Of a stretch of DNA of 45,476 bases, positions 1 through 34,869 are shown piece after piece (the first letter of the stretch is position 1; each line of letters opens with the position of its first letter). The translations under genes and the position numbers were made by a program. The notes under the pieces are model-generated. The model worked only from the letters and a program-made list of their open reading frames with translations, ran no database searches and was not told where the DNA came from. Source of the stretch: Prevotella sp. (lineage in GTDB: Bacteria > Bacteroidota > Bacteroidia > Bacteroidales > Bacteroidaceae); contig JAFTQG010000017.1 in the NCBI GenBank assembly GCA_017462915.1, positions 1 to 45,476 of the forward strand, in the 5' to 3' direction.

Positions 1-102
1 AGTTATGGTTATGGTTATGGTTAGGGTTAAAGTTATGGTTGTAGGAAAGTAATCTCCGTATAACCGCTAAACCGTACAACCGTATAACCGTCAACCGTCA
101 AA
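1..102. repeat. Period-8 intergenic inverted-repeat element, copy A (cut by window start)
   Basis: The left arm is a run of GGTTAT-type units and the right arm a run of AACCGT-type units. Between them, at 43-57, is the core AGGAAAGTAATCTCC, followed by GTATAACCG. The same core occurs at 18214 and 28603 with one to two changes, and in exact reverse complement at 32860. The element ends about 35 bp upstream of the rsmG promoter. The left end is missing because the window begins inside it. Confidence 0.8.
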
Positions 103-135
103 CTTCTCGTTTCATCTGCAAAATTAATTAATTTT

Positions 136-167
136 TTTGGTTATTAAAAATAAAATAGGTACTTTTG
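136..167 (+). promoter_or_regulatory. Bacteroidetes-type promoter for rsmG
   Basis: TTTG at 136-139 and TACTTTTG at 160-167 are separated by 20 bp, matching the Bacteroidetes sigma-ABfr pattern TTTG-N19/21-TAnnTTTG. The start codon of rsmG follows 17 bp after the -7 element, so the leader would be very short. Confidence 0.7.
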
Positions 168-183
168 CAGAAATAAAGATTGA

Positions 184-810
184 ATGATGGAACAGATACT
201 ACGCTATTTCCCAGATCTGACGGAGAAGCAGAAAGAGCAGTTTGCCATGCTTGATGCTCTCTATCACGACTGGAACTCAAAGATAAACGTCATCTCACGC
301 AAGGACATAGACAATCTCTACGAACACCATGTCCTCCACTCCCTTGCCATAGCCAAGGCCCTGCGTTTCCGTCCCGGCACGAAGGTGCTGGACTTCGGTT
401 GCGGAGGAGGTTTCCCCGGAGTGCCGTTGGCAATAATGTTTCCAGAGGCGCAGTTCCGCCTCATTGACGGTACAGGCAAGAAGGTGCGTGTGGCACAGGA
501 GGTTGCCGACGCCATAGGGCTGGAAAATGTCGACGCCTGCCATATCCGCGGCGAGGAGGAGAAGGGACAGTATGACTTCGTTGTCTCGCGTGCCGTGATG
601 CCTCTTCCCGATTTGGTGAAGATTGTCCGCAAGAACATCGCCCGTCAGCAGCGCAACTCCATGCCAAACGGTATCTTTGTCTTGAAAGGCGGCAATCTCG
701 ATGGGGAGATACAGCCTTTCCGTCGTGTAGCGGAGAAGACGGAACTGTCGGCATGGTTCGAGGAAGAATGGTTCAAGGAGAAATACCTTGTCTATCTTCC
801 TATGGCGTGA
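184..810 (+). CDS. rsmG: 16S rRNA (guanine-N7) methyltransferase RsmG
   Basis: Cytoplasmic enzyme that uses S-adenosylmethionine to methylate N7 of G527 in 16S rRNA (E. coli numbering). The 208-residue length is normal for RsmG/GidB. The N-terminal part has the family pattern NxxxNVISR around residue 35 followed by HVLHSL. The SAM-binding loop VLDFGCGGGFPGVPLA sits near residue 68, and VSRAV comes about two thirds along. Two ATG codons lie in tandem at 184 and 187, and either could be the start. No Shine-Dalgarno is visible, as is usual in this phylum. The promoter at 136-167 suggests this gene begins a transcription unit. The family assignment is secure from sequence; the exact site is known from the family. 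Confidence 0.95.
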   Translation: MMEQILRYFPDLTEKQKEQFAMLDALYHDWNSKINVISRKDIDNLYEHHVLHSLAIAKALRFRPGTKVLDFGCGGGFPGVPLAIMFPEAQFRLIDGTGKKVRVAQEVADAIGLENVDACHIRGEEEKGQYDFVVSRAVMPLPDLVKIVRKNIARQQRNSMPNGIFVLKGGNLDGEIQPFRRVAEKTELSAWFEEEWFKEKYLVYLPMA

Positions 811-924
811 CATGCGTCAGTCTGCCATGTATGGCTTGTTTCCGTCATGGCGGAAGATACCTGCCGGCATGGGTGCCAGTGTATGAAATAGTCTTTTAAA
901 TAATATCTCAGAATACACCAGACT

Positions 925-1620
925 TTGGATTTCTCAACAATAACACAAATAGACCTGTGGTGGATGCCACTGCTGTCGGGAGAACATTCGCTGTTCTTCG
1001 ACGAGCTGGCGCTCACGCTGACGTCGGGACTGACATGGATTCCGCTCTATCTGACGCTGTTTTTCGTAGTCGTGAAGAACAATGAGACGATGATGCAGAT
1101 ACTCCTTGCGGTGCTGGCGGCAGGTGTCTGCATACTCCTTGCCGACGGTATGGCTGACGGAATAATAAAGCCTATGGCTATGCGTCTGCGCCCTCTCAAT
1201 GACCCGGATGTGCGTCCTCTGCTGGATATCGTGCCAGGAGTGGCGAACAAGAACTACAGCTTCTTCTCTGCACATGCGTCAAATACGATGTCGCTCTGTG
1301 TCTTCTTTTCCCTTCTGATGAGAAACTGGCGGCTTACTGTAGGTATGGTGGTGTGGTCACTGGTGAACTGCTGGACGAGGATATATCTCGGAATGCACTA
1401 TCCTTCGGACATCGCCGTTGGACTGCTGTGGGGCGCGACGGTGGGCACCGGCGTGTATTACGGCTACAGGTATTTCTACTTCAAGGTGACGGACAGGCTG
1501 CATTTCATCTCCTCCCAATACACGAGGACAGGCTATGCGCTTGCCGACATCAACCTTGTAGTCAATGTATTACTGCTCATTTCGCTTTATGCGATATTCA
1601 GGGCTCTTATCCTTGCATGA
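925..1620 (+). CDS. PAP2-family membrane phosphatase
   Basis: Membrane phosphatase of the PAP2 (lipid phosphatase / undecaprenyl pyrophosphatase-like) superfamily. All three PAP2 motifs can be read: KPMAMRLRP (motif 1, KxxxxxxRP), SFFSAHA (motif 2, here SAH instead of the commoner SGH), and RIYLGMHYPSD (motif 3, RxxxxxHxxxD). About five to six hydrophobic segments span the 231 residues, so it should sit in the inner membrane with the active site outside. The only in-frame start near the N-terminus after the stop at 901 is TTG at 925, giving MDFSTITQ. The gene ends with an ATGA overlap onto queA, suggesting translational coupling. The substrate (undecaprenyl pyrophosphate, lipid A phosphate or phosphatidic acid) cannot be told from sequence. 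Confidence 0.85.
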   Translation: MDFSTITQIDLWWMPLLSGEHSLFFDELALTLTSGLTWIPLYLTLFFVVVKNNETMMQILLAVLAAGVCILLADGMADGIIKPMAMRLRPLNDPDVRPLLDIVPGVANKNYSFFSAHASNTMSLCVFFSLLMRNWRLTVGMVVWSLVNCWTRIYLGMHYPSDIAVGLLWGATVGTGVYYGYRYFYFKVTDRLHFISSQYTRTGYALADINLVVNVLLLISLYAIFRALILA

Positions 1621-2858
1621 TGAACAACGACCCAAGAAACATAAAGATATCAGACTATGACTATCCGCTCCCAGACGAGAGGATAGCGAAATTCCCGCTT
1701 GAGAAGCGTGACCACAGCAAATTGCTGGTCTACAACCGCGGGGAGATAAGTCATACACAATTCCACCATCTCCCGGAACTGTTGCCGGAGGGCGCACTGA
1801 TGATTTTCAATAATACACGCGTCATACGTGCACGCCTTCATTTCCGCAAGTCTACGGGAGCACTGATAGAGGTGTTTCTCCTCGAACCCCATGTCCCTGC
1901 CGACTACGAGCGGATGTTTCAGGTGCAGGGAGAGTGTGAGTGGCTGTGCCTTATAGGCAACATGAAGAAGTGGAAAGACGGTGCGCTCTGCCGCACATTC
2001 CTCGTGAAAGGGGAGGAGACAACGCTCTCGGCAGAGCATATCGGAACACAAGGCACAAGTCAGGTGGTGAGATTCCGTTGGGACGGAGACGCCTCTTTTG
2101 CCGATGTCATAGACGCCGCAGGAGAACTGCCGATACCGCCTTATCTCAACCGTGATACGCAGGAGAGCGACCTCACTACATACCAGACGGTCTACTCGAA
2201 GATAAAAGGCAGTGTCGCGGCTCCTACCGCCGGACTTCATTTTACGGACAGTGTCCTTGCCGACATAGACCGTCACGGTATAGAGCGCGAGGAACTTACG
2301 TTGCATGTCGGTGCCGGGACGTTCCGTCCAGTGAAGTCAGAGCTTATCAGTGGGCATGACATGCACACCGAGTATGTCTCCGTGCGTCTGCATACCATAG
2401 ACAGGCTTCTCGCACACGGTTGCCGAGCGATAGCTGTGGGCACGACGTCCGTGCGCACTCTGGAGAGCCTGTATTATATAGGATGCCATATACTGGAGCA
2501 TCAAGACTGTGTCACGGATACAGACCTGCATGTCAGACAATGGGAGCCTTACGAGGCTTCGGAAGGAAAAGCAGAGGTCAGTGCGGAGGCGTCTCTCAGA
2601 GCCATCCGCAACTATCTTGTGGAAAACGGTCTTGAAGTGCTCAATGCTTCTACGCAGATTATCATCGCGCCGGGTTACAGATACCATATCGTCTCGCGCC
2701 TTGTAACCAATTTCCACCAGCCACAGTCGACACTGTTGCTCCTTGTCTCAGCCCTCGTCGGCGACGACTGGCACAGAATATACGACTACGCCCTGGACAA
2801 TGATTTCCGTTTCCTGAGCTATGGCGACTCGTCTCTGCTCATTCCTGACGGAGAATAA
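1617..2858 (+). CDS. queA: S-adenosylmethionine:tRNA ribosyltransferase-isomerase QueA
   Basis: Transfers and isomerises the ribose of SAM onto 7-aminomethyl-7-deazaguanine in tRNA to form epoxyqueuosine. Family signatures are clear: the N-terminal YPLPDERIAKFP, NNTRVIRARL, then KGSVAAPTAGLHFT, LHVGAGTFRPV, AVGTTSVRTLES and the C-terminal TNFHQPQSTLLLLVSAL. The open frame extends far upstream inside the PAP2 gene, but homology starts at the tandem ATGs at 1617 and 1620 that overlap the PAP2 stop. From 1617 the protein is 413 residues, somewhat longer than the usual ~350, because of an insertion in the middle (QPWEPYEASEGKAEV-like region). Likely translated from the same mRNA as its upstream neighbour. 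Confidence 0.95.
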   Translation: MMNNDPRNIKISDYDYPLPDERIAKFPLEKRDHSKLLVYNRGEISHTQFHHLPELLPEGALMIFNNTRVIRARLHFRKSTGALIEVFLLEPHVPADYERMFQVQGECEWLCLIGNMKKWKDGALCRTFLVKGEETTLSAEHIGTQGTSQVVRFRWDGDASFADVIDAAGELPIPPYLNRDTQESDLTTYQTVYSKIKGSVAAPTAGLHFTDSVLADIDRHGIEREELTLHVGAGTFRPVKSELISGHDMHTEYVSVRLHTIDRLLAHGCRAIAVGTTSVRTLESLYYIGCHILEHQDCVTDTDLHVRQWEPYEASEGKAEVSAEASLRAIRNYLVENGLEVLNASTQIIIAPGYRYHIVSRLVTNFHQPQSTLLLLVSALVGDDWHRIYDYALDNDFRFLSYGDSSLLIPDGE

Positions 2859-2881
2859 CAGTAGATAAAAAGAAAAACATA

Positions 2882-4027
2882 ATGAAAATAGGTGATAAAG
2901 TAAGTTTTCTCTTTGACAAAGGCGGCGGAAAGGTAGCTGCCATCAAGGGAAATATAGTATATGTAGAGGACGAGGACGGTTTCCAGATACCTACTCCTAT
3001 AAATGAAGTCGTCGTGGAGTCTTCGGCTGACAGCTATTCCACAGGCAATATGGTGAAGGCCATGCAGAGCATGGAACGCCGCCAGCAGATACAGTCGGAC
3101 GGACGTAGCATGAAGGCTTTGCTCAATGAAGGGCTTGACGATGATGTGGAGGGGATGATGGAAATGCCTGACGATGACCCGGCCATGAAGGACATCACGT
3201 TCAAGGCTCCTGTAGAGGAGCGCAAGGGAGGCAATCTTCTCAGCGCTTATCTTGCCTTTGTACCGGAGGATGTCAAGAAGGTCACTGACACACAGTTTGA
3301 CGCTTATCTTGTCAATGACTCGAACTACTATCTGCAGTATACCTACCTGTCTGCTGAGAACAATAACTGGCATCTGCGCCGACAGGGTGTGCTGGAACCG
3401 AACACCAAGGAGTTCATTGAGGAGTTCTCTCAGCGTGAGGTGAACTCACTGAGCCGTGTATGTATACAGATGACGGCATATAAGGAGGACAAGCCTTTCG
3501 CTCTGAAGAGTCCTCTGAGCGTGCAGATGCGCATAGACCCTGTGAAGTTCTACAAGCTCCATACGTTCAAGCCGAACGATTTCTTCGAGGAACCGGCGTT
3601 GCTTTATACCATCGTGGAGAACGACAAGGTCGCACGCTCGATAAATCTTGACCCGGACAGCTTGAAAGAGGAGATGTATGCCAAGCCTGAGGAACTTGAG
3701 AAGCTCAGCACAATGAATACCGCTCCTGTGCGCCACGGCCTTGAGGATGCTGAGGTCGTAGACCTTCATGCCGAGAAACTCCTTGACAGCACCGGTGGCA
3801 TGTCGTCGGCAGACATCCTCAACTACCAGCTTGACAAGTTCCGCGAGGTGATGAAGAGCCACCGTCATGAGAAGGGGAAGAAGGTGATCTTCATACATGG
3901 TAAGGGTGAGGGAGTGCTCCGCCATGCCATAATCCATGAGTTGAGCTACCGATACCGTACATGTACATGGCAGGACGCGTCATTTCAGGAATACGGATAT
4001 GGCGCGACACAGGTGACTATAAAATGA
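2882..4027 (+). CDS. DUF2027 / Smr-domain protein
   Basis: 381-residue soluble protein typical of Bacteroidetes. It starts with a small beta-rich module (MKIGDKVSFLFDKGGGKVAAI), continues with the DUF2027 region, and ends with a Smr domain (about residues 295-381). The Smr domain is recognised by DLHAEKLL, FIHGKGEGVLR and the C-terminal GYGATQVTI. Smr domains in MutS2 and related proteins act as nucleases or nucleic-acid binders, and several cleave mRNA at stalled ribosomes. For this architecture the role is unknown. It lies 23 bp after queA and probably belongs to the same operon. The middle region carries an acidic segment near residues 80-100. The domain call is solid; any function beyond that would be a guess. 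Confidence 0.85.
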   Translation: MKIGDKVSFLFDKGGGKVAAIKGNIVYVEDEDGFQIPTPINEVVVESSADSYSTGNMVKAMQSMERRQQIQSDGRSMKALLNEGLDDDVEGMMEMPDDDPAMKDITFKAPVEERKGGNLLSAYLAFVPEDVKKVTDTQFDAYLVNDSNYYLQYTYLSAENNNWHLRRQGVLEPNTKEFIEEFSQREVNSLSRVCIQMTAYKEDKPFALKSPLSVQMRIDPVKFYKLHTFKPNDFFEEPALLYTIVENDKVARSINLDPDSLKEEMYAKPEELEKLSTMNTAPVRHGLEDAEVVDLHAEKLLDSTGGMSSADILNYQLDKFREVMKSHRHEKGKKVIFIHGKGEGVLRHAIIHELSYRYRTCTWQDASFQEYGYGATQVTIK

Positions 4028-4034
4028 TAGCTTG

Positions 4035-4156
4035 AGGTTGCAGACGGTTATACGGTTGTGCGGTTGTAAGGTGAAATGGCAGATTGCCTCATCTGAAACC
4101 AATCATCCCCAGCCGCATAGCCCGTCCAACCGCATAACCTTATAACCGTAAAAACC
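4035..4156. repeat. Period-8 intergenic inverted-repeat element, copy B
   Basis: Left arm 4041-4068 contains ACGGTTATACGGTTGTGCGG; right arm 4111-4150 contains CCGTCCAACCGCATAACC and further AACC units. The centre is not the common core. The element starts 8 bp after the Smr gene stop and ends about 6 bp before the nadE ATG, so it fills the whole gap. No TAnnTTTG promoter is seen here, so it is probably transcribed as an intercistronic hairpin. Confidence 0.7.
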
Positions 4157-4162
4157 ACCAAT

Positions 4163-6052
4163 ATGACAAACCACGGATTCATCACATTGGCTGCGGCTGT
4201 ACCGTCAGTGCGCGTTGCCGATGTAGCATACAATACAGAGGAGATAGAACGACTTGTGGCAGAAGCCGAGGAGTGTGGTGTGGAGCTCCTTGTCTTTCCG
4301 GAACTGTCTGTGACAGGATACACCTGCCAGGATCTCTTCCGCAGCGAGCATCTGCTTGATGCTTCAGACGAGGCACTGAACATTCTCTGCGACTTCAGCA
4401 TCGGCAGGGCGATAACATTCGTCGTCGGTGCTCCACATCGGCAGGATGACAGACTTATGAACTCTGCCGTGGTGATATGCAACGGCGAGCGCCATTATGT
4501 CCACAAGACATATCTTCCTAATTATAACGAGTTCTACGAGAAACGCTGGTTCTCTGTCGAGGCTGTCTCAGCAGAGCCTCTTCTCTTCCGGCTTCCGTCT
4601 GGAGTGACTTTCGGTGTGGAGATATGCGAGGACCTTTGGTCTGCTCTTCCTCCATCAAGCCGTCTTGCAACGGCAGGGGCTGACATCATCCTCAACCTTT
4701 CCGCTTCCGACGAACTTGCGGGAAAGCATCAGTATCTCCTCTCGCTTCTCTCACAGCAGAGTGCACGCACGATGTGCGGATATGTCTACAGCTCGGCAGG
4801 CTTCGGCGAGTCCACACAGGATGTCGTGTACGGAGGAAACGCCATAATCTATGAAAACGGCGTGCAACTGGGACATTCCAAACGCTTTTCCCTTGACCCG
4901 CAACTCGTGATAGGACAGATAGACGTGCAGCGGTTGCGCACGGAGCGGCGTGCCAACACTACATTCGGACGCGCGCAAGGGACACAGATGCAACATGCGG
5001 AGATTGTCTCCCTCGAACCGGATGACGATGCATACAATGTGCTGAAGCGCAAGTTTGAACTCATGCGCCAGTACGACCCGCATCCGTTTATCCCTAAGTC
5101 TGACGATATGAGAGCCTCCTGCGAGGAGATTTTCAATATCCAGGTGATGGGCTTGGCACGGCGTCTATCGCACATAAGGTGTAAGGATGTCGTCGTGGGA
5201 ATAAGTGGCGGACTGGATTCTACGCTTGCCCTTCTCGTGTGCGTGCGTACATTTGATAAACTGGGATATGACCGTAAGGGCATACACGGAATAACCATGC
5301 CTGGCTTCGGTACCACAGACCGTACACATGACAATGCCCTGTCACTGATGACAAGTCTTGGCGTGACACAGCGCGAGATAAGCATCGTGGATGCCGTGAA
5401 GCAGCATTTCGCGGATATAGGACACGATATTGACTGCCATGATGTCACTTACGAGAACTCGCAGGCACGCTACCGCACGATGCTGCTTATGGACATCGCC
5501 AATCAGGTCAACGGCATAGTGATAGGTACCGGTGAACTCTCGGAACTGGCTCTTGTATGGGCGACATACAACGGAGACCACATGTCTATGTATGGCGTTA
5601 ATGCCTCAGTGCCGAAGACTCTTATACGTCATCTTGTGAAGTATGTTGCCGACTATGAGGTGGACAAATCCGCAAAGGCGACCCTCATGGATATCATAGA
5701 CACGCCGATATCCCCGGAACTCATTCCTGCTGACGAGAACGGCAATATAAAGCAGAAGACGGAAGACCTTGTAGGCCCTTATGAGCTGCACGACTTCTTC
5801 CTGTATCATTTCCTGCGTTTCGGATTCTCTCCGGAGAAACTGCTGCTGCTGTCGCATAATGCTTTCTGCGGAAAATATGATGATGAGACCATCAAGCACT
5901 GGTTGAAGACATTCATGCGGAGATTCTTCAGACAGCAGTTCAAACGCTCCTGTCTTCCTGACGGTCCGAAGGTGGGATCTGTGTCGCTCTCGCCACGAGG
6001 AGACTGGCGTATGCCTTCCGATGCTTCAGACGCTCTTTGGACTCTTGAGTAG
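4163..6052 (+). CDS. nadE: Glutamine-dependent NAD+ synthetase
   Basis: Catalyses the last step of NAD biosynthesis: ATP-dependent amidation of deamido-NAD, using ammonia released from glutamine. The N-terminal ~290 residues form a nitrilase-type glutaminase with the expected Glu-Lys-Cys triad (E47 in FPELSVTG, K115 in HKTYLP, C155 in EICEDLW). The C-terminal half is the synthetase with the PP-loop SGGLDST at residues 348-354, then GTGELSELALVWATY and DKSAKATLMDI. The 629-residue length suits this two-domain class. The start at 4163 gives MTNHGFITLAAA, aligning with the family N-terminus. A period-8 element occupies the space upstream. Confidence 0.95.
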   Translation: MTNHGFITLAAAVPSVRVADVAYNTEEIERLVAEAEECGVELLVFPELSVTGYTCQDLFRSEHLLDASDEALNILCDFSIGRAITFVVGAPHRQDDRLMNSAVVICNGERHYVHKTYLPNYNEFYEKRWFSVEAVSAEPLLFRLPSGVTFGVEICEDLWSALPPSSRLATAGADIILNLSASDELAGKHQYLLSLLSQQSARTMCGYVYSSAGFGESTQDVVYGGNAIIYENGVQLGHSKRFSLDPQLVIGQIDVQRLRTERRANTTFGRAQGTQMQHAEIVSLEPDDDAYNVLKRKFELMRQYDPHPFIPKSDDMRASCEEIFNIQVMGLARRLSHIRCKDVVVGISGGLDSTLALLVCVRTFDKLGYDRKGIHGITMPGFGTTDRTHDNALSLMTSLGVTQREISIVDAVKQHFADIGHDIDCHDVTYENSQARYRTMLLMDIANQVNGIVIGTGELSELALVWATYNGDHMSMYGVNASVPKTLIRHLVKYVADYEVDKSAKATLMDIIDTPISPELIPADENGNIKQKTEDLVGPYELHDFFLYHFLRFGFSPEKLLLLSHNAFCGKYDDETIKHWLKTFMRRFFRQQFKRSCLPDGPKVGSVSLSPRGDWRMPSDASDALWTLE

Positions 6053-6067
6053 CTTTGAACGGCGGTT

Positions 6068-6119
6068 TTGAGGGTGAAACTCTTAAAAAACTTTAATAAA
6101 AGGTAGAGTTCTCCCTCAA
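6068..6119 (+). terminator. Hairpin after nadE, possible terminator
   Basis: TTGAGGG (6068-6074) pairs with CCCTCAA (6113-6119), and ACTCT (6079-6083) with AGAGT (6105-6109). No clear T-run follows, so termination is uncertain; it may be a 3'-end stabilising hairpin. Confidence 0.45.
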
Positions 6120-6122
6120 GAC

Positions 6123-6153
6123 TTTACAGTTTCAAGAATTTTCAGTACCTTTG
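6123..6153 (+). promoter_or_regulatory. Promoter for the tRNA pair
   Basis: TACCTTTG at 6146-6153 fits the TAnnTTTG -7 element, with a TTTA at 6123-6126 placed 19 bp upstream as a weak -33 element. The tRNA-Ser gene begins 53 bp further on. Confidence 0.6.
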
Positions 6154-9868: not shown

Positions 9869-9883
9869 GAGGTATATGTATTT

Positions 9884-10188: not shown

Positions 10189-12393
10189 ATGAACATCCCA
10201 TCTGTATTTTGGCTTGTCCCGATAGCATCCGTAGTGGCATTGGGCATGGCATGTTTCTTTTTCCGTCAGATGATGGCAGAGGAGGAAGGAACTGTGAGAA
10301 TGAAAGAAATTGCTCTTCATGTAAGGCGTGGTGCCATGGCTTACCTCAAGCAGCAGTACAAAGTAGTAGGAATCGTGTTTGCCGTGTTGGCGGTGGTATT
10401 CGCTTTCATGGCGTATGTGCTTCATGTGCAGAATCCTTGGGTACCGTTTGCATTCCTTACAGGAGGATTCTTCTCGGGACTTGCAGGCTTTTTCGGAATG
10501 AAGACCGCAACATACGCCTCGGCACGTACAGCCAATGCAGCACGTCAAGGGCTCAATAGGGGACTGAAGGTCGCCTTCCGCAGCGGTGCCGTCATGGGCC
10601 TCGTTGTCGTTGGTCTTGGCCTGCTTGATATAGCATTATGGTTTGTAGCCCTGAGTTACTTCTATGAAGGCGACGAGATGGCACTTGTCACCATAACTAC
10701 CACCATGCTGACCTTTGGCATGGGAGCCTCCATGCAGGCACTCTTTGCACGTGTAGGCGGCGGTATATACACAAAGGCTGCCGATGTCGGTGCAGACCTT
10801 GTCGGTAAGGTTGAGGCGGACATCCCGGAGGATGACCCACGCAACCCTGCAACCATAGCAGACAATGTCGGTGACAATGTCGGAGATGTTGCCGGCATGG
10901 GCGCTGACTTGTATGAAAGCTATTGCGGCAGTATCCTCAGCACGGCGGCTCTCGGTGCTACAGCGTTTGCCCTGAATCCGGACATGCAGATGAGAGCTGT
11001 CATCGCCCCTATGATAATCGCTTCCGTAGGCATATTCCTTTCGCTGATTGGTATCTTCCTTGTCCGCACGAAAGAGGGTGCAAGTATGCGCGATCTGCTT
11101 CATTCCCTCGGCCTTGGTACCAATGTCTCGGCTGTGCTGATAGCCATATCGTCGTTTGTCATACTGTATCTCTTGGAGATAGACAACTGGCTTGGCGTAT
11201 CATTCTCCGTGCTTACAGGACTTGCGGCAGGAGTCATCATAGGTCAGGCGACGGAATATTATACCAGCCAGAGCTACAGGCCGACGCAGCAGATAGCGGA
11301 ATCCTCGCAGACAGGTTCGGCTACTGTCATAATAAAAGGTATCGGCACGGGCATGATATCGACAATGATACCCGTTGTGACCATATCGATAGCCATAATG
11401 CTCAGTTACCTTTGTGCCAACGGCTTTGACCTTTCGATGAATGCACAGAGCATTTCCACAGGCCTTTACGGCATAGGCATCGCTGCTGTAGGTATGCTTT
11501 CCACTCTCGGCATCACTCTTGCCACCGATGCTTACGGCCCTATCGCAGACAATGCCGGCGGCAATGCGGAGATGAGTGGCCTCGGTGAAGATGTCCGTCA
11601 CCGTACCGATGCACTGGACGCCTTGGGCAATACCACGGCAGCTACAGGCAAGGGCTTTGCCATAGGCAGTGCGGCACTGACTGCTTTGGCATTGCTTGCC
11701 TCATACGTAGAGGAGATAAAAATCGCCATGGTGCGTGCCGTGGAGCATGGACAGACATTCTATGACGCGGCAGGAAATCTCTTCAATCCTGCCACAGCTA
11801 ATATGCTTGACTACATGGACTATTTCCAGGTGACGCTGATGAATCCGAAAGTGCTCGTGGGAGCCTTCCTCGGCGGCATGTCAGCCTTCCTCTTCTGTGG
11901 CCTTACCATGGGAGCAGTAGGCCGTGCAGCACAGACGATGGTCGAGGAAGTGCGTCGCCAGTTCCGCGAGATTAAGGGCATTCTCGAAGGCAAGGCAACG
12001 CCGGATTACGGCCGTTGCGTGGCCATCAGTACCCGTGCGGCACAGAAGGAGATGATTTTCCCGAGTGTCCTTGCCATACTGATACCTATTGTCGTCGGCC
12101 TGTTGCTTGGTGTGGCAGGTGTCATGGGATTGCTTGTTGGCGGACTTACGTCAGGCTTTACGCTGGCAGTCTTTATGGCTAATGCCGGCGGAGCGTGGGA
12201 CAATGCAAAGAAGATGGTCGAGGAAGGCCATTTCGGCGGCAAGGGTTCCAAGTGTCATAAGGCAACCATCGTAGGCGATACTGTAGGCGACCCATTCAAG
12301 GACACCTCCGGTCCGTCGCTCAATATCCTTATAAAGCTGATGTCTATGGTAAGTATCGTGATGGCAGGTCTTACCTTGGCTTTTGGCATGTAG
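10189..12393 (+). CDS. hppA: K+-dependent membrane-bound ion-pumping pyrophosphatase
   Basis: Integral membrane enzyme that couples pyrophosphate hydrolysis to export of H+ and/or Na+. The 734 residues contain about 16 hydrophobic segments. The substrate-binding signature DVGADLVGKVEADIP starts at residue 199 and is followed by DDPRNPATIADNVGDNVGD. The C-terminal metal site includes NAGGAWDNAKK and GDTVGDPFKDTSGPS. GNTTAATGKGFAIGSAALTA has Ala where K+-independent enzymes have Lys, so K+ dependence is expected. Whether it moves Na+, H+ or both cannot be decided here; a Bacteroides homologue is known as a dual Na+/H+ pump. It is a single gene with its own promoter. Confidence 0.95.
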   Translation: MNIPSVFWLVPIASVVALGMACFFFRQMMAEEEGTVRMKEIALHVRRGAMAYLKQQYKVVGIVFAVLAVVFAFMAYVLHVQNPWVPFAFLTGGFFSGLAGFFGMKTATYASARTANAARQGLNRGLKVAFRSGAVMGLVVVGLGLLDIALWFVALSYFYEGDEMALVTITTTMLTFGMGASMQALFARVGGGIYTKAADVGADLVGKVEADIPEDDPRNPATIADNVGDNVGDVAGMGADLYESYCGSILSTAALGATAFALNPDMQMRAVIAPMIIASVGIFLSLIGIFLVRTKEGASMRDLLHSLGLGTNVSAVLIAISSFVILYLLEIDNWLGVSFSVLTGLAAGVIIGQATEYYTSQSYRPTQQIAESSQTGSATVIIKGIGTGMISTMIPVVTISIAIMLSYLCANGFDLSMNAQSISTGLYGIGIAAVGMLSTLGITLATDAYGPIADNAGGNAEMSGLGEDVRHRTDALDALGNTTAATGKGFAIGSAALTALALLASYVEEIKIAMVRAVEHGQTFYDAAGNLFNPATANMLDYMDYFQVTLMNPKVLVGAFLGGMSAFLFCGLTMGAVGRAAQTMVEEVRRQFREIKGILEGKATPDYGRCVAISTRAAQKEMIFPSVLAILIPIVVGLLLGVAGVMGLLVGGLTSGFTLAVFMANAGGAWDNAKKMVEEGHFGGKGSKCHKATIVGDTVGDPFKDTSGPSLNILIKLMSMVSIVMAGLTLAFGM

Positions 12394-12444: not shown

Positions 12445-12578
12445 AGGGTGGAGCCCCTGGATTCCCGCCCTCCCTGCGCCGGGAGCACATTATGGCACAG
12501 GCGGGCTGGGCTATACCATCGAGGCGGAAATCAAGCCCGGGCTATACTATAAGTGGGGGAGCCTTGACCGTTGCACGT
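12445..12578 (+). pseudogene. Broken partial copy of the downstream cyclophilin gene
   Basis: This 134-bp stretch is a diverged duplicate (roughly 85-90 % identical by eye) of 15593-15723 in the intact peptidylprolyl isomerase gene. A 30-bp block around CCGGGAGCACATTATGGCAC and a 20-bp block around ATCGAGGCGGAAATC are unchanged. Small insertions relative to the parent shift the frame and no start or continuation exists, so it cannot encode a protein. It lies between hppA and the GH106 gene, so the GH106 gene is flanked by two directly oriented cyclophilin segments. That suggests duplication or insertion at this locus. The remaining bases of the hppA-GH106 gap hold no feature I can support. 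Confidence 0.88.
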
Positions 12579-12641
12579 TAGTGTGCTTCGCTTCATTATA
12601 CAAAGTGTCGTTTTGTTTCACATATTCACTGAAATGCCACA

Positions 12642-15441: not shown

Positions 15442-16179
15442 ATGAACATAAAAATTTCGACTACAATAGGCGACATCATAGTGCGCCTGTACGACGAGAC
15501 ACCGCTTCACCGCGACAATTTCGTGAAGCTCGCAAAGGAAGGCTATTATGATGGAACGATATTCCATCGTGTGATAAAGAACTTCATGATACAGGGCGGA
15601 GACCCTGACTCCCGCAATCCTGCGCCGGGAGCACATTATGGCACAGGCGGTCCAGGCTATACCATCGAGGCGGAAATCAAGCCAGGGATATACCATAAGA
15701 GAGGAGCCTTGGCCGCTGCACGTCAGGGCGATGAAGTAAATCCTGAGCGCAGAAGTTCAGGAAGCCAGTTCTATATCGTGTGGGGAGATGTCTACAAGGA
15801 AGGACAGCTTGCCCAGCTTTCCAAGCAACTTGAGATGCAGGCGCAGCAGGGCATATTCAACAGCCTCGTGGCAGAGCACCGTGCAGAAATCCTTCAGATG
15901 CGCAAGAACCGTGACCAAACAGGGCTGATGGCCTTGCAGGAAAGGCTTGTCGCAGAGACGGAGAAAGTGGCGAAAGAGCAGGGCGTAGGCGGACTAACCG
16001 ATGCTCAGAAGCAGATATACACGACAGTGGGAGGCACGCCGCATCTTGACGGACAGTACACAGTCTTCGGCGAAGTGACAGAAGGTATGGACATTGTCGA
16101 GAAGATACAGCAGACGGCCACACATCCGGGCGACCGTCCTGTTGAAGACATTGTGATGAAGGTTACAGTATTGGAGTAG
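15442..16179 (+). CDS. Cyclophilin-type peptidylprolyl isomerase
   Basis: Catalyses cis-trans isomerisation of proline peptide bonds. The cyclophilin fold is clear: VRLYDETPLHRDNFVKLA, GTIFHRVIKNFMIQGGDP (catalytic Arg in FHRVI), SGSQFYIVWGD and the C-terminal YTVFGEVTEGMDIVEKI. The ATG at 15442 (MNIKISTTIGD) is preferred. An upstream in-frame start at 15343 would precede the promoter and adds a non-homologous segment. No signal peptide is seen, so it is probably cytoplasmic. The 245-residue length reflects a helical insertion (about residues 115-190) rich in Gln, Glu and Arg. A defective copy of residues ~51-94 lies at 12445-12578. It is followed directly by hemW. Confidence 0.92.
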   Translation: MNIKISTTIGDIIVRLYDETPLHRDNFVKLAKEGYYDGTIFHRVIKNFMIQGGDPDSRNPAPGAHYGTGGPGYTIEAEIKPGIYHKRGALAAARQGDEVNPERRSSGSQFYIVWGDVYKEGQLAQLSKQLEMQAQQGIFNSLVAEHRAEILQMRKNRDQTGLMALQERLVAETEKVAKEQGVGGLTDAQKQIYTTVGGTPHLDGQYTVFGEVTEGMDIVEKIQQTATHPGDRPVEDIVMKVTVLE

Positions 16180-17358: not shown

Positions 17359-17437
17359 CGGTTATACGGTCATTCGGTAACACTTATCCGCTACCTCGTG
17401 TTACCTCCGTAAAACCGCACAAACCGCCTAACCGTAA
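17359..17437. repeat. Period-8 intergenic inverted-repeat element, copy C
   Basis: Starts at the base after the hemW stop (CGGTTATACGGT) and ends with AACCGCCTAACCGT 9 bp before the next ATG. Its centre differs from the common core and holds a perfect 8-bp hairpin, GGTAACAC (17376-17383) with GTGTTACC (17398-17405). No promoter motif is visible in the gap. Confidence 0.7.
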
Positions 17438-18118: not shown

Positions 18119-18267
18119 GTTGGCGGTTGTATGCGGTTGTACGGTTATGCGGTTGTATGTGGTTATACGGTTATACGGTTGTGTGGTTATTGGGTTAGGC
18201 GGTTGTACGGCATAGGAAAGGTAATCTCCGTATAACCGCCTAACCGTATAACCGTATATAACCGCAC
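18119..18267. repeat. Period-8 intergenic inverted-repeat element, copy D
   Basis: The longest copy. The left arm has about eleven CGGTTRTA-like units (18122-18210); the core TAGGAAAGGTAATCTCCG spans 18213-18230; the right arm (18231-18264) has about four AACCGTAT-like units. It begins 1-2 bp after the preceding stop codon and lies upstream of the ECF sigma factor gene. Confidence 0.85.
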
Positions 18268-19446: not shown

Positions 19447-19556
19447 GTACGGTTATGTGCGGTTGGACGGTTTTGCGGTTATACGGTTATATGTTTTTAT
19501 AAATAAAGTAATCGACCGCACAACCGTCCAACCGCATAACCGCCCAACCGCATATA
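19447..19556. repeat. Period-8 intergenic inverted-repeat element, copy E
   Basis: Begins at the base after the preceding stop. GCGGTTGGACGGTT in the left arm (19459-19472) is matched exactly by its reverse complement AACCGTCCAACCGC in the right arm (19522-19535), so the arms are true inverted copies. The centre keeps AAAGTAATC from the common core. It ends about 50 bp upstream of the asparaginase promoter. Confidence 0.8.
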
Positions 19557-24300: not shown

Positions 24301-25533
24301 TTTGCGTTTTTTAGTGGATTGATACCAAATATGACTCACACTGTTTCATTGTATGGAACAATAAATGGCGTGGAGTATAGTTGGGAACCATATCGGTTTA
24401 CTACAGGGCCTGTATCAGTTTCCGCTCGCGCGTCTGATGTGGAACAGACTTCGGCAACTATCTCCAAGTCCTACAACTTCGGTGATGCCACATACGTGTC
24501 ATCTGGCATAGTATATGGAACGACAACAGCCATGACGGAACATGTAAACAACGAGGAAGGAGAAATCCGTCTGACGGAGCTCTTGCCGAATACGACATAT
24601 TATTATCGTGCATACGTTGAGGTAAAAGAAGGTGGAAAGATATATTCTTCTCGCAACTCGTTCAAGACACCTGCCATTATATGTACCACATCGCCTGTGA
24701 GCAATATATCCAACCGCTCGGCAACGATGAACGGAACAATAGACTGTGACGGTTACAGTTCTGCAGAGTTTGGTTTCCAGTGGAAGCAGATGGAGGGTTG
24801 GAACAGTGATCCAGCATTCACGAAAGGTGTTAAGAATGAAGACGGCTCAATATCCGTGGCATTAGTTAATGGCATGTTGGAGCCGAATACCGATTATCAG
24901 TATCGTACAGCTGTCAGATATAAGGGAAACATCTACTATGCCAGCAATTGGGAAACATTCCGCACGGAATCTGAGTTTGTGTATTATCCGGCAAGTGTAT
25001 ACACAATATACCGCACGGATAGAGAAAATAATTGCCTTATATTATGCGGTTATTATGTAGCAGGAAGCGAAGAGGTTGTTGCGCAAGGATATGAGTATTG
25101 GAATACGTCTTCATCTGCCCGTTCAAGCAAGGCTTATGCTGTGGCTAATAATGTCATTCAGGTCACCACTGACGAATCTATGCAATATAGTCTTGACTTG
25201 AAGGCACTTGCTGACGGAAACTATTCTGTACGTGCATTTGTCAAGACATCATCTGGTAATACTATATACGGCAATACTTTGGCATTTGGTGTGCAGGGTG
25301 GAAATGTCACTGGCATTGATAATGTGGAAACCACAAACGTGAAATATTCTATTTTCAATCATATTTTGACAATATACAATGCTGCAAATCTGTCATGTGC
25401 CATTTATAATCTACAGGGGCAAACTGTAGAGCATAGATTGTTAGCGACGGATTGTGAACAATTTTATCTTGTACCGGGAAATGTTTATATAATTAGGCTA
25501 AGTAACGGTATGACTTACAAAGTTCGAATATGA
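21382..25533 (+). CDS. Large secreted repeat-domain protein with T9SS-like C-terminus
   Basis: 1,383-residue predicted surface or secreted protein. A signal peptide (MQKITFKVFVACLLAVIA, cleaved after THA) is followed by about ten to eleven fibronectin-III-like beta domains. Each tends to open with a T..TQT.A.I..GDA pattern and close with LLPNTTYYYRAYV-type sequence. Three adjacent modules (about residues 463-556, 557-650, 651-745) are close relatives, two sharing EDGG and all sharing a YIQPAGC-like block. The C-terminal ~70 residues (GIDNVET... to YIIRLSNGMTYKVRI) resemble a type A sorting domain of the type IX secretion system. No enzyme domain is recognised, so adhesion or binding is only a guess. 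Base composition is mosaic: the middle (about 22.1-24.4 kb) is clearly more AT-rich than the ends and the neighbouring genes. Confidence 0.75.
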   Translation: MQKITFKVFVACLLAVIAISTHAQIVLHEATDVTQTKATLSADFPDLSVEHGFQYKYGTLPEIDDFSKLALSAISDPVQINTTGTNAWSARTVKGWVESKSNLYVGQTSVMSAKVKFSEPTTVTFEWSVDSEEGIGILSFIVDGKTVREISGAVDFTQVSYQATAGEHTLQWQYKKTAATNVGLDLGMVRNIDLQNTTEGEWISKIAPASEFQLSNLYPEQNYIYRAYENNKYSKTSEFSTLGISVYDITTDNITQTKATINAKIDQGDAKTISTLIWGYDIAFDDRYDMFDSGSNLAIIKSGTYIEGGKTKKPTLEFKSAESCKISFKASFSGGTAGHGYITISSVEGYYCQETILSHSYSACTRTYDLPAGSYNIWFGASYGDVYVSDFNLSNSTYGSIASYQRKKQVQFSGDSYKLESLIPNTTYSYIISVVPSYSGELPVPSNSVKDSAKQSFTTNSVKAKNQQPSVVTQSTAQIEGVVESGDASIIATGLQYKDAEGKRWSDYPKDVTATVLSQNINRLKPNTTYHYRTYIQAQKCDTVFSDIGSFTTLEVKAAKPTLIEYSQTKAKIKNAVTFGDAVIYKRGVQFRKSDEVPWMEMEDGGNDAVYDVVLEHLLPNTSYQVRTYIQPAGCETVYGDMLSFTTLAVEALKPTVIKLAQHEVILQGTVQFGDASIYQRGMQFRKQGETKWEEIEDGGSESIFTLVKKGLEMSTTYEARTYVQPAGCDVIYSDILTFKTAHYVSDVSNPEVKTTQTTAVITFMLSDTDDEIEEAGIYYGSDSNKEQWKQVSGVMEGNVVKVTIPNLKYNARYYYRPYVKVNGQYYFYDDMGNNASFVTKDITATMTFPVITQTTVQIKADIDAGDANVTGWGYCFGDSYDSENFYPYEELTEIRNLSINKKYNIGLFCSVDGEYKLIASGDFTTKDVAVSALFFNVTQTKAEMRITVNSGDAEVTDFKYCLDYGDKVRCGDFAFFSGLIPNMTHTVSLYGTINGVEYSWEPYRFTTGPVSVSARASDVEQTSATISKSYNFGDATYVSSGIVYGTTTAMTEHVNNEEGEIRLTELLPNTTYYYRAYVEVKEGGKIYSSRNSFKTPAIICTTSPVSNISNRSATMNGTIDCDGYSSAEFGFQWKQMEGWNSDPAFTKGVKNEDGSISVALVNGMLEPNTDYQYRTAVRYKGNIYYASNWETFRTESEFVYYPASVYTIYRTDRENNCLILCGYYVAGSEEVVAQGYEYWNTSSSARSSKAYAVANNVIQVTTDESMQYSLDLKALADGNYSVRAFVKTSSGNTIYGNTLAFGVQGGNVTGIDNVETTNVKYSIFNHILTIYNAANLSCAIYNLQGQTVEHRLLATDCEQFYLVPGNVYIIRLSNGMTYKVRI

Positions 25534-25593: not shown

Positions 25594-25646
25594 AGATAAA
25601 GATACGCCGCAGTTTCTATTTTTGAGACTGCGGCGTATCTTTATCT
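25594..25646. terminator. Bidirectional intrinsic terminator between convergent genes
   Basis: Two 20-nt arms (25594-25613 and 25627-25646) are perfectly complementary, with core GATACGCCGCAGT/ACTGCGGCGTATC, a 13-nt loop, and A/T-rich flanks suitable on both strands. It lies between the large secreted-protein gene (+) and valS (-), about 60 bp past the former. Confidence 0.9.
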
Positions 25647-28544: not shown

Positions 28545-28665
28545 TGTACGGTTATACGGTTGTGCGGTTATACGGTTATGCTGTTGTGCGGTTGCGTGGC
28601 ATAGGAAAAGTAATATCCGTATAACCGCATAACCGTCTGAGCCGTATAACCGCATCTATAACCAC
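28545..28665. repeat. Period-8 intergenic inverted-repeat element, copy F
   Basis: Left arm 28547-28596 (ACGGTTATACGGTTGTGCGG and further units), core AGGAAAAGTAATATCC at 28603-28618, right arm 28619-28663 with CGTATAACCGCATAACCG. It lies between the divergent genes valS and mutA, upstream of both candidate promoters. The rest of this 359-bp gap holds only the two promoters and AT-rich sequence. Confidence 0.8.
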
Positions 28666-28724: not shown

Positions 28725-28797
28725 CAAAATATTATATGCGTTCATCACTATGTGAATGAGAATAGCAACATAACATAATAAAACTTAACAAACAACT

Positions 28798-30648: not shown

Positions 30649-30654
30649 ACTACT

Positions 30655-32805
30655 ATGGCAAGAAAAGATTTTAAGAATGTTGATATCTTTGCGGGTATCG
30701 AGAAGAAAGACGGCGCAAAGTGGCAGCAGGAAAACGGTGTCAAGAATGTATGGAAGACACCTGAGCACATAGAGGTAAAACCTGTATATACAAAGGAAGA
30801 CCTTGAAGGCATGGAGCATCTCGACTTCGCCGCAGGTATCCCTCCGTTCCTCCGTGGCCCATACTCTATGATGTATCCGTTCCGTCCATGGACGATACGT
30901 CAGTATGCAGGATTCTCCACGGCAGAGGAGTCAAACGCTTTCTATCGCAGGAATCTTGCTTCCGGACAGAAAGGTCTCTCCGTAGCCTTTGACCTCCCTA
31001 CCCACCGTGGCTATGACCCGGACAACATGCGTGTCGTAGGTGATGTGGGCAAGGCCAGTGTGTCTATCTGCTCTGTGGAGAACATGAAGGTGCTGTTTGA
31101 CGGCATTCCATTGAACAAGATGTCTGTGTCCATGACCATGAACGGTGCGGTACTTCCTATCCTCGCGTTCTATATCGTGGCAGGTCTTGAGCAGGGCGCA
31201 AAGCTCGAGGAGATGGCTGGAACCATCCAGAACGATATCCTGAAGGAGTTCATGGTGCGTAATACATATATATATCCGCCGTCATTCTCCATGAAGATTA
31301 TCGCCGACATCTTCGAGTATACATCGAAGAACATGCCTAAGTTCAACAGCATCTCCATCTCCGGCTATCACATGCAGGAGGCTGGCGCTACCGCTGATAT
31401 TGAGCTTGCATATACTCTTGCCGACGGTATGGACTATCTCCGTGCCGGTGTCAATGCTGGTCTTGACATCGACGCCTTCGCTCCACGTCTCTCGTTCTTC
31501 TGGGCTATCGGCGTGAACCATTTCATGGAGATTGCCAAGATGCGTGCAGGACGTCTCCTGTGGGCTAAGATCGTGAAGAGCTTCGGTGCAAAGAATCCTA
31601 AGTCCATGGCTCTCCGCACACACTCGCAGACATCAGGCTGGTCGCTGACAGAGCAGGATCCGTTCAACAATGTCGGCCGTACATGTATCGAGGCTATGGC
31701 TGCCGTGCTCGGACATACACAGTCTCTGCACACCAACTCTCTCGATGAGGCTATCGCGCTCCCGACAGACTTCTCAGCACGTATTGCACGTAATACCCAG
31801 ATCTATATCCAGAACGAGACAAAGGTATGTAAGGAGATTGACCCATGGGCTGGCTCTTACTATGTAGAGTCTCTGACTCAGGAGCTTGTCGAGAAGGCTT
31901 GGGAGCATATCCAGGAGATAGAGAAGCTCGGAGGTATGGCAAAGGCCATCGAGACAGGTGTGCCTAAGATGCGTATCGAGGAGGCTGCCGCACGTACACA
32001 GGCACGTATCGACTCTGGCGTGCAGACTATTGTCGGAACAAACAAGTACCGTCTTGACCATGAGGACCCTATCGATATCCTCGAGGTGGACAATACCGCT
32101 GTACGTCTGCAGCAGGAGGCTGCGCTCAAGGAACTGAAGGCAAAGCGCGATAACGAGGCTTGCCAGAAGGCTCTTGATGCTCTGACAGAGGTAGTACGCA
32201 CAGGTGAGGGCAACTTGCTGGAGGCTGCTGTAGAGTGTGCTAAGCTCCGTTGTACTCTCGGTGAGATAAGTGATGCTTGTGAAAAAATCGTAGGACGTTA
32301 TAAGGCAGTGGTAAGAACAATATCAGGTGTGTATTCTTCTGAATACAAGAAGGATACAGAGTTTGAAGAGGCAGTTCGCTTGACGAACGAGTTTGCAGAG
32401 AAGGAAGGACGCCGTCCACGTATCTTCGTTGCAAAAATGGGACAGGATGGTCATGACCGTGGCGCGAAAGTAGTAGCGACAGGTTATGCCGACTGCGGTT
32501 TCGATGTGGATATGGGACCTCTCTTCCAGACTCCTGCCGAGGCTGCGCGTGAGGCCGTGGAGAATGATGTGCACATCGTTGGCGTATCTTCTCTTGCCGC
32601 AGGTCATAAGACACTTATCCCGCAGCTCTTTGAGGAACTGAAGAAGCTCGGCCGTGAGGATATCATGGTCATCGCCGGTGGTGTCATCCCTGCACAGGAT
32701 TATGACTTCCTCTATAAGGCTGGCGTTGCCGCGATCTTCGGTCCTGGCACGTCAGTGGCATATTCTGCCAAGACTATGATGGAACTCCTTATGGATAAGG
32801 ATTGA
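30655..32805 (+). CDS. mutB: Methylmalonyl-CoA mutase large (alpha) subunit
   Basis: Catalytic subunit of adenosylcobalamin-dependent methylmalonyl-CoA mutase. The 716-residue protein has the substrate barrel with [45 protein letters not shown] and [12 protein letters not shown]. The C-terminal B12-binding domain (about 585-716) has the base-off ligand motif [20 protein letters not shown], followed by [16 protein letters not shown] and the GG motif in VIAGGVIP. The 5,6-dimethylbenzimidazole tail would be displaced by the His of DGHDRG. It forms an operon with mutA. Together they serve the succinate-propionate pathway common in Bacteroidales and make the cell cobalamin-dependent, in line with the MetH activation protein at 17.4 kb. 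Confidence 0.97.
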
Positions 32806-32824
32806 TAATTATATAAATCGGTCT

Positions 32825-32944
32825 TACGGTTGTACGGTTATACGGTTGTGTGGTTATATGGAGATTACTTTCCTGTAACCCACAACCGCATAACCTACAA
32901 CCGTATAACCGTAAAACCGCACACAACCGTAAAACCGCACAACC
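32825..32944. repeat. Period-8 intergenic inverted-repeat element, copy G (inverted core)
   Basis: The left arm contains ACGGTTGTACGGTTATACGG and the right arm AACCGTATAACCGTAAAACC. The core at 32860-32874 is GGAGATTACTTTCCT, the exact reverse complement of the core in copy A, so the element is inserted or flipped in the opposite orientation. It fills the mutB-sppA gap from about 19 bp after the stop to 1 bp before the sppA ATG. Its right half is an open frame in phase with sppA. Confidence 0.85.
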
Positions 32945-32945
32945 A

Positions 32946-34730
32946 ATGAAAGACTTTTTCAAGAACATTCTCGCCACAGTATTCGGCGTATTCCTTTGTA
33001 TAGGCATATTCATAGCCTTCTCCATCATCAGCCTTATAGGTATGGTAGCATCGACGTCAACGGAGACTGAGGTTAAGGACAACTCGGTGCTTGTCCTCAA
33101 TCTCCAGGGACAGATAACGGAGAAAGGCTCTTCCGATCCATTCGCCGAACTGCTTGGAAACGAGCAGATGTCTACAGGTCTTAATGATATCCTTTCGGCA
33201 ATAGAAAAGGCAAAGGATAATGATGATATCAAGGGTATCTATATAGAGACGGGAGCGCTTGCCGCTGATAACGCCACTATTCAGGAGATACGCAATAAGC
33301 TGAAGGAATTCAAGGCAAAGAAAAAGTGGATTGTCGCTTACGGTGAGATATATACACAGGGTGCATACTATCTTGCATCGGTGGCCGACAAGGTTTACAT
33401 CAACCCTTATGGCCATCTTGATTTCCATGGCATAGGTGCGCAGCCTATGTATGTCAAGGACTTTGCAGCCATGTTTGGCGTAAAGTATAATATAATAAAG
33501 GTGGGCACATATAAGAGTGCTACCGAGATGTATACCGAGGATAAGATGTCTGACGCCAACCGCGAGCAGGTATCGGCATACATAAACGGCATGTGGCAGA
33601 ATGTCCTGAAGGATATCTCTGCGTCACGCAAGATAAGCGTTACCGAACTCAACAGGATTGCCGACGGCTTTACCGTGATGAGTTCGACAAAGGCTCTCAA
33701 GGCTCAGAAGCTGGTTGACGGTATGCTTTATGCAGACCAGGTGAAGGCGGAGATAAAGAAACGCCTTGCGCTTGATGCCGATGAGGAAATACATCAGCTC
33801 AGCGTTGCGGCAATGAAGAATGTCACGGTAGATAATGACTCTGACAATAAGATTGCCGTTTACTATTGTGAGGGAACTATTGTGCAGAGTGCCCTGACAG
33901 GCTTTGCCATGGGAAGCACGACTCAGATTGTCGGCAAGACTGTCTGCAAGGACCTTGAGAAACTTGCCAAGGATGATGATGTAAAGGCTGTTGTCCTCCG
34001 CATAAACTCTCCTGGTGGTGACGCGTATGCTTCCGAGCAGATGTGGCATTATATCGCAGAACTGAAGAAGGTGAAGCCTGTGGTTGTCTCCATGGGTGGA
34101 TGTGCTGCTTCCGGCGGATACTATATGTCGTGCAATGCATCATGGATTATCGCGCAGCCAAATACAATTACCGGTTCGATAGGTATCTTCGGTGCATTCC
34201 CTGACCTCACAGGACTGATGACACAGAAACTGAAATTCCATTATGATGAGGTGAAGACAAACGCAAACTCGACATTCTCTCCGATAGCAATGGCACGTCC
34301 GCTCACAGCTGACGAGATTGCCGCCATGCAGACATGGATTAACGACGGCTATGCCTTGTTCCGTAAGCGTGTGGCTGACGGCCGCAAGATGAAGGTCGAG
34401 GCAGTGGAGAAGATAGCCCAGGGTAGGGTGTGGCTCGCTACCGATGGTCTGAAGAATGGTCTTGTCGACCAGCTCGGAGGCCTTGATGATGCAGTGAAGA
34501 AAGCTGCCCAGCTTGCTAAGGTAAAGGATTTCTGTACTGTGGATTATCCTGCAGCGCCGGATTTCATGGCTCAGCTGATGAATAAGGTGGCAGGCGGTAC
34601 AGGTAGTGCTCTTGATGAGCAGCTCCGCCTCGCTCTCGGTTCATACTATGAGCCGTTCATGCTTATGCGCACAATCAACGAACAGTCGCCTGTTCAGGCA
34701 CGTATGCCATATTTCCTTGAGATGAAGTAA
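32946..34730 (+). CDS. sppA: Signal peptide peptidase SppA, long (67K-type) form
   Basis: Membrane-anchored serine protease that degrades cleaved signal peptides. One N-terminal transmembrane helix (ATVFGVFLCIGIFIAFSII) anchors two tandem Clp-like domains in the periplasm. The Ser-Lys dyad is visible: Lys190 in GTYKSATEMYTEDKMS and Ser389 in GCAASGGYYMSC. The tandem-domain length of 594 residues fits the E. coli-type enzyme. The open frame can be extended upstream to 32850 through the period-8 repeat, but the ATG at 32946 begins the homologous sequence (MKDFFKNIL) and is preferred. It is probably cotranscribed with lpxK and thiL. Confidence 0.93.
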   Translation: MKDFFKNILATVFGVFLCIGIFIAFSIISLIGMVASTSTETEVKDNSVLVLNLQGQITEKGSSDPFAELLGNEQMSTGLNDILSAIEKAKDNDDIKGIYIETGALAADNATIQEIRNKLKEFKAKKKWIVAYGEIYTQGAYYLASVADKVYINPYGHLDFHGIGAQPMYVKDFAAMFGVKYNIIKVGTYKSATEMYTEDKMSDANREQVSAYINGMWQNVLKDISASRKISVTELNRIADGFTVMSSTKALKAQKLVDGMLYADQVKAEIKKRLALDADEEIHQLSVAAMKNVTVDNDSDNKIAVYYCEGTIVQSALTGFAMGSTTQIVGKTVCKDLEKLAKDDDVKAVVLRINSPGGDAYASEQMWHYIAELKKVKPVVVSMGGCAASGGYYMSCNASWIIAQPNTITGSIGIFGAFPDLTGLMTQKLKFHYDEVKTNANSTFSPIAMARPLTADEIAAMQTWINDGYALFRKRVADGRKMKVEAVEKIAQGRVWLATDGLKNGLVDQLGGLDDAVKKAAQLAKVKDFCTVDYPAAPDFMAQLMNKVAGGTGSALDEQLRLALGSYYEPFMLMRTINEQSPVQARMPYFLEMK

Positions 34731-34731
34731 G

Positions 34732-34869
34732 TTTAGTTGTTTAGTGGTTTGGTGGTTTAGTTGTTTGGTTGTTTGAACTTCTATTATGGCTATTATAGCT
34801 ATTACGGCTATCCTACCCAAAACCACAAAACCACAAAACCACCAAACGACTAAACCACTAAACCACCAA
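34732..34869. repeat. Period-8 intergenic inverted-repeat element, copy H (variant unit)
   Basis: Same architecture and same 8-bp period but another unit: the left arm is GTTTAGTT/GTTTGGTG-like (34732-34775) and the right arm CAAAACCA/CTAAACCA-like (34818-34869). The centre (TATTATGGCTATTATAGC) lacks the common core. It starts 1 bp after the sppA stop and ends 11 bp before the lpxK ATG. Confidence 0.75.

Follow-up and report, generated by a model that had tools for sequence, protein, structure and literature searches.

Arrays of short words with opposite polarity at gene starts and stops in some Prevotella genomes

In some Prevotella genomes, many intergenic gaps follow a simple rule, in which the type of a short, tandemly repeated word goes with the gene boundary beside it. 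In element-rich stretches chosen around array matches, and with crude open reading frame (ORF) calls, the 60 nt before ATG codons held the end of an AACC-type array 32 times, that of a GGTT-type array 0 times and neither 88 times in one genome (G000), and 22, 2 and 70 times, respectively, in its sister species (G060). Within 60 nt after stop codons, GGTT-type arrays outnumbered AACC-type arrays by 33 to 7 in G000 and 17 to 5 in G060 (sign tests were applied to both the start and the stop counts). G000 is a 2.93 Mb Prevotella genome, and one of its contigs is the 45,476-nucleotide stretch of DNA analyzed here, hereafter the window.

The original prediction described a single design, inverted arms of short units around a centre, in eight gene gaps of the window. 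All eight are present where it placed them, with the qualification that the first is truncated, the third is weak and degenerate, and the last is built of a different word. The elements, with gene names from Pfam (10 window genes, up to position 25533), are:

1..102, upstream of gidB: element truncated at the contig start; left arm 1-42, core AGGAAAGTAATCTCC at 43-57, right arm 58-102
4035..4156, gap between an Smr/DUF2027 gene and an NAD synthase gene: arms 4044-4071 and 4122-4149, different centre
17359..17437, gap between a radical SAM gene and a methionine-synthase-activation-like gene: degenerate, weak copy
18119..18267, gap between the methionine-synthase-activation-like gene and an ECF sigma gene: core 18215-18230, minus strand, opposing transcription
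19447..19556, upstream of an asparaginase gene: arms 19454-19488 and 19522-19556
19488..19518, centre of the 19447 copy: flipped in G060
28545..28665, divergent gap: core 28604-28619, minus strand
32825..32944, gap between two same-strand genes: core 32860-32874, reading AGGAAAGTAATCTCC on the minus strand
34732..34869: different word, GGTTTAGT/GGTTTGGT; centre 34775-34819, GGCTAT-type units

The right arm of the 32825 element stops 1 nt short of the ATG at 32946. The shared core AGGAAAGTAATCTCC, or a near match to it, was found on the plus strand at 1-102, 18119 and 28545 and on the minus strand at 32825, and the fifth copy said to keep AAAGTAATC is the one at 19447, where the predicted exact 14-bp arm match sits within a 22-nt inverted match of 95% identity. 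An inverted-repeat search requiring arms of at least 16 nt recovered arm pairs at six of the eight gaps (4035, 18119, 19447, 28545, 32825 and 34732) and none at 1-102, which is truncated, or at the short, weak copy of 17359. A two-unit arm pattern, CGGTTRTRCGGTTRTR with one mismatch, matched the window 27 times, always within six of the eight gaps, and neither the reversed pattern nor ten dinucleotide shuffles matched at all. The two gaps without a CGGTTRTRCGGTTRTR match are 17359, which is degenerate, and 34732, which has GGTTTAGT-type units. Among single CGGTTRTR units in the window, 37 of 41 fell within gaps, and the 4 outside compare with about 5.5 expected from base composition; with no excess of single units outside arrays, we rejected the idea of a DNA uptake sequence. 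The only Rfam hits above gathering score in the window were two tRNAs. The dispersed intergenic family is real and is richer than first described, the polarity at gene boundaries, the alternative words and cores, and an inversion of the centre having been missed.

The family is not confined to the window. Absence of copies elsewhere in the genome, which the original prediction named as an argument against a functional or mobile family, was not found: with one mismatch the arm pattern matched 537 times in G000 and 360 times in G060, compared to 2 and 1 matches for the reversed control. Across a genus survey of 398 genomes, G000 among them, arm matches rose above background in 12: G000 and G060, followed by G416 (259), G078 (174), G299 (120), G414 (102), G053 (87), G253 (51), G004 (28), G203 (27), G065 (22) and G332 (13). 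The remaining genomes had 0-6 matches each in a table read by eye. In a 26-row NAD-synthase tree, G000, G060 and G203 group together, G416 lies elsewhere, and G078, G065, G004, G332 and G053 form one clade with full support (G299, G414, G253 and G009 are not in the tree, having no full orthologue among the 30 genomes queried). This placement of the array-bearing genomes puts the trait in at least three lineages. Phylum-wide, a general GGTT octamer pattern matched 17 of 296 genomes, including G000, mostly in few copies (71 in G710, 11 in G572, 5 in G634); since the reversed control reaches 4-13 in some genomes of the phylum, isolated low counts mean little.

Arms differ among copies in both word and length. 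The unit words include CGGTTRTR/YAYAACCG and GGTTTAGT, both of 8 bp, GAGTTAT/AACTCAT, of period 7, and GGTTTTAGG. Among the centres, class A is CGGAGATTACTCTTCC, often with GGTTATA on its 5' side and TATAAC on its 3' side, class B consists of 9-bp ATAGCCGGA units, and many further types exist; several copies in G416 have a core of their own, about 32-36 bp long and mutually similar. As a 16-bp pattern with two mismatches, core A was matched 37 times in G000 and 17 times in G060 (control, 0). We rejected the core as an ancient conserved RNA: by eye, the core-pattern matches outside these two genomes lack arms, all having been inspected except L027 and L031, where the match fell outside the viewed stretch. 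The arm-less matches include two GGAGCGTAAGCTCC places in G071, L025 and L036. Arrays reach 31-36 units in G078. In 27 arrays from five other species, units two apart agreed more than neighbouring units (0.708 vs 0.517, with about 0.61 after shuffling), and this 16-bp periodicity was weak in the 13 arrays examined in G000 (0.694 vs 0.652). Array length probably changes by slippage in 16-bp, two-unit steps.

Where arrays are paired, their order is nearly invariant. Over all sampled species, 75 pairs read GGTT-AACC and one read the reverse, and the 75 comprise 50 in same-strand gaps, 8 in divergent gaps, 5 in convergent gaps, 5 at stretch edges and 7 inside a called ORF. In the G000 sample (184 kb, picked around matches and including the window), a GGTT/AGTTAT cluster was followed by an AACC/ATAACT cluster 33 times, with no reversed pair, 35 lone clusters and 9 pairs of one type; the G060 sample (150 kb) gave 17 pairs in the same order, 1 reversed, 43 lone clusters and 2 one-type pairs. 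A palindromic element of a single polarity would yield the start and stop rule automatically, and the five convergent gaps, which have no start to serve, still read GGTT-AACC. Unpaired arrays nearest a start were AACC-type in 38 of 44 cases, the other 6 being of the other type, and those nearest a stop were GGTT-type in 25 cases and AACC-type in just 18. Core A also has an orientation: in same-strand gaps of G000, 19 cores point with transcription (two of them in one gap) and 6 against (one of them without arms), and in G060 the counts are 10 and 0, some of the cores in the two genomes being orthologous pairs.

We tentatively favor, with confidence somewhat short of even, the explanation that the arrays are fast-evolving RNA modules at gene boundaries, each an unstructured leader on which ribosomes would land, with a supporting hairpin upstream of it. 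RNA-level modules seem most likely because the polarity of the arrays, the orientation of the core and the openness of start regions all relate to the transcript. Read along the coding strand, the GGTT-type array follows closely on a stop codon and the AACC-type array ends close to the start of the next gene, often around CGGAGATTACTCTTCC. In the mRNA, the AC-rich array would act as an unstructured landing leader for ribosomes. Where genes are co-transcribed, an intercistronic hairpin would form as the GU-rich array, together with the core, folds back on the upstream portion of the leader; this hairpin would keep the genes apart and might shield the 3' end of the upstream one. Bacteroidota are reported to make little use of Shine-Dalgarno pairing, and if the leaders act in translation, they bear on how starts are found without it. 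Counting against an RNA module are the automatic start and stop rule of any palindrome with one polarity, the convergent pairs, the many lone clusters, the modest excess of GGTT-type among unpaired arrays nearest a stop, and a minority of cores that oppose transcription, the one at 18119 among them.

Folding predictions are consistent with an open leader. In G000, the predicted unpaired probability of the start region (-15 to +5) was 0.61 for leaders with paired arrays (n=19) and 0.68 for leaders with an AACC-type array only (n=8), in both cases with the array end within 20 nt of the ATG, compared to 0.48 for leaders without arrays (n=88; p=0.008 and p=0.002, respectively). We rejected a hairpin masking the start codon, as the start region is predicted to be more open, not less. 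Relative to half-wise shuffles, the RNA folds reached z < -2 at 24 of 30 sites in G000 and 14 of 30 in G060 (11 in both), the sites having been picked in G000, and 16 of the 30 fail to reach z of -2 in G060.

The pairing of the arms is less refined than first proposed. Among 50 copies, none of 20,000 permutations reached the observed sum of own-arm matching, and among the 22 copies built of the CGGTT word, 1153 of 20,000 did; arms match within a copy because they share words. At 21 orthologous sites, own arms did not pair better than arms taken across species (12 up, 9 down, p=0.29). These two results leave letter-level co-evolution of the arms unsupported, and the statement that complementarity is maintained was too strong. 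The original prediction had also counted conservation at identical positions without conserved pairing against the family, and this is partly what we see: the sites are kept, and their pairing is not refined letter by letter.

Alignment with the sister species provides a natural experiment, in which place and polarity are mostly kept and the letters often change. We located 22 of the 24 anchors in G060 (all but L138 and L139), and 23 of the 27 element sites tried could be aligned, giving 30 sites together with seven from the window, with flank identity mostly 89-98% (range 78-99). Under a weak requirement, one arm motif or more to each side, 25 of the 30 sites qualify in G060; at 21, both species have at least two per side. 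The five sites without two-sided motifs in G060 are L008, L130 (11590), L141, L147 (2954) and the window site at 17359, whose G060 counterpart is without arms. The 4035 element is present in G060 and partly rewritten; the gap upstream of gidB, truncated in the window, also holds an element there, with a different centre; and the 18119 site holds a palindrome built of a different word, both arms having switched word together, as they have at L147 (5440). At L148, a site otherwise well conserved, the centre is conserved and the unit count differs. The centre of the 19447 element is inverted between the sisters (cross-strand score 56, same-strand 33), and at no other site did the cross-strand score clearly exceed the same-strand one. 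The inverted arms may allow template switching or recombination to turn the centre around. In G203 (flanks 68-86% identical), such arms were absent from the three gaps compared. Since the sisters rewrite the arms, the exact leader sequence cannot matter much. Fast rewriting of words at mostly kept places and polarity suggests a little-studied punctuation of genes and not an ordinary mobile repeat.

Some of the same observations could be read as neutral minisatellites, in which slippage and snap-back template switching act under weak selection and polarity and words are accidents of the founding sequences. The 16-bp higher-order periodicity, the change in unit number at L148, the rewriting of arms between sisters and the inverted 19447 centre all fit such turnover. 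A polarity of 75 to 1, the start-codon rule and the orientation of cores speak against it, as does the fact that some loci in other Bacteroidota show this polarity in different words, and we regard it as fairly unlikely.

A further explanation, to which we also give only a minor chance, is that these are non-autonomous mobile repeats, a core element copied into new gaps by some enzyme, with the arms as expandable ends. The recurrence of the 16-bp core in G000 and G060, the mutually similar cores of G416 and the five sites lacking two-sided arm motifs in G060 would fit such copying. Against it, 25 of the 30 sites are common to both sisters, and no clean empty site or target duplication was noticed by eye at the 30 in this one sister, whose flanks are mostly 89-98% identical. 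The Y1 transposase family (PF01797) has no match in G000, G060, G203 or G078 and shows no association over 30 genomes (half of the genomes exceed the cut-off in either group, 6 of 12 with arrays and 9 of 18 poor in arrays), on which grounds we rejected mobilization by RAYT. A plasmid or phage origin was likewise rejected, as one element used as a query matched no plasmid or phage record. Integron attC sites were set aside: the polarity is opposite (here GTT left and AAC right), and the named neighbours are ordinary genes, syntenic in G060. Mobile cores and neutral turnover may nonetheless supply the material on which selection at gene boundaries works.

The arrays might instead act as DNA, as binding sites for a putative nucleoid or transcription protein that recognizes GGTT at 8-bp intervals. 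This spacing is kept across several lineages; period-7 (AACTCAT) and other words occupy the same kind of place, however, and binding alone does not account for core orientation, making this explanation very unlikely. Of the three roles originally proposed, an RNA hairpin fits best with polarity and core orientation, and a mobile repeat is possible, with no Y1 match.

The original prediction knew of no named element with this structure, and we likewise found none in the open-access literature; nor did open PMC articles yield any account of octamers arrayed in mirrored polarity at the two kinds of gene boundary. The closest known system is the TAACTGA intergenic heptamer, a direct repeat forming arrays upstream of start codons (MacGregor, 2015; PMC4679880). 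There, one heptamer forms one-sided arrays in gaps, in one genome mostly in one orientation just 5' of start codons and with one indirect repeat in that genome; it is also reported from five Bacteroidetes, with one set reversed directly after a stop, and a role in translation was suggested. The Prevotella arrays are alike in placing a tandem short word in a single orientation just before starts (32:0 and 22:2 here). Instead of TAACTGA, they use degenerate octamers and several words; they also have mirror-image arrays behind stop codons and a core, and their letters change from one sister to the other. The start and stop word rule ties the Prevotella arrays to the unexplained TAACTGA arrays.

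Other intergenic repeats are more distant. REPs are 20-40 bp long, are mostly tagged at one end with GTAG or CGTC and often accompany a Y1 transposase. The elements here are unit arrays, their core CGGAGATTACTCTTCC has by eye no GTAG/CGTC-type tag, and the two richest genomes have no Y1 match. What they share with REP/BIME and RAYT systems, as those accounts present them, is many intergenic palindromes per genome and proposed mRNA roles (PMC2817692, PMC3733652). PINSR, also an intergenic repeat of a Prevotella lineage (the P. intermedia/nigrescens group), is described as a 188-bp element without terminal inverted repeats, with 177 and 184 copies in two strains and about three quarters of sites in common (PMC4755523); our elements differ from that description in having inverted arms. 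The BrickBuilt MITE of Bacteroidetes is similarly intergenic, with a minisatellite of variable unit number, but by its description the 23-bp units stand between a leader and a tail with IS5-like terminal inverted repeats (PMC4596501) and do not form inverted arms, as the units do here.

A small, unblinded look outside the genus covered 17 array loci in 16 genomes. By script, seven of the 17 fit the rule, at starts (L237, L240, L241, L242, L243) or stops (L244, L250), and a further two (L235, L236) fit by eye. L240 and L242 resemble each other and could represent a single gene sampled from two genomes. The script made no call on L245, L246 or L247. At L252, an AACC-type arm lies 26 nt past a stop, with a GGTT-type stretch in between by eye. 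Contrary to the rule, L238, L239, L248 and L249 have a GGTT-type array 20-60 nt before the called start; the ORFs concerned, of 87-227 aa, may be false calls. We consider it doubtful that the arrays reflect a punctuation common to the Bacteroidota, with lineage-specific words, AACC-type before starts and GGTT-type after stops, that are rewritten yet kept in place and linked to translation. As a separate observation, the ORF at L248 looks coding.

Among the genomes searched with the general GGTT octamer pattern, a distant member of the Bacteroidota (G710) gave 71 matches, and at one of its sampled loci (L250) a stop codon is followed, from 4 nt downstream, by perfect GGGTTTTC units. Counts per genome may be too low, since the contig of the window begins inside an array (position 1), which suggests that arrays may break short-read assemblies.

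Two other repeats were seen at array sites. The first is a second dispersed repeat, consisting of AAAGTTCCGATTAAGCGAGAACAG followed by GAAAGC-type and TCGAGCG-type pieces, which adjoins or falls within arrays in both the window's own genome and its sister species; the second, GTAGGGACGTACC with GGTGCGTCC, forms a REP-like palindrome inside or adjoining the array sites.

Sampled loci carrying each repeat
AAAGTTCCGATTAAGCGAGAACAG repeat: L003, L008, L010, L038; L147, about 11603-11706
REP-like palindrome (GTAGGGACGTACC / GGTGCGTCC): L131, about 2843-2941; L160; L161

An inverted-repeat search of the window also returned positions 25594-25646 (23 nt, 96%, arms 7 nt apart), which lie between two convergent genes, without arrays, and look like a terminator. 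Elsewhere in the window, positions 12445-12581 and approximately 15593-15726 share 86% identity across about 134 bp.
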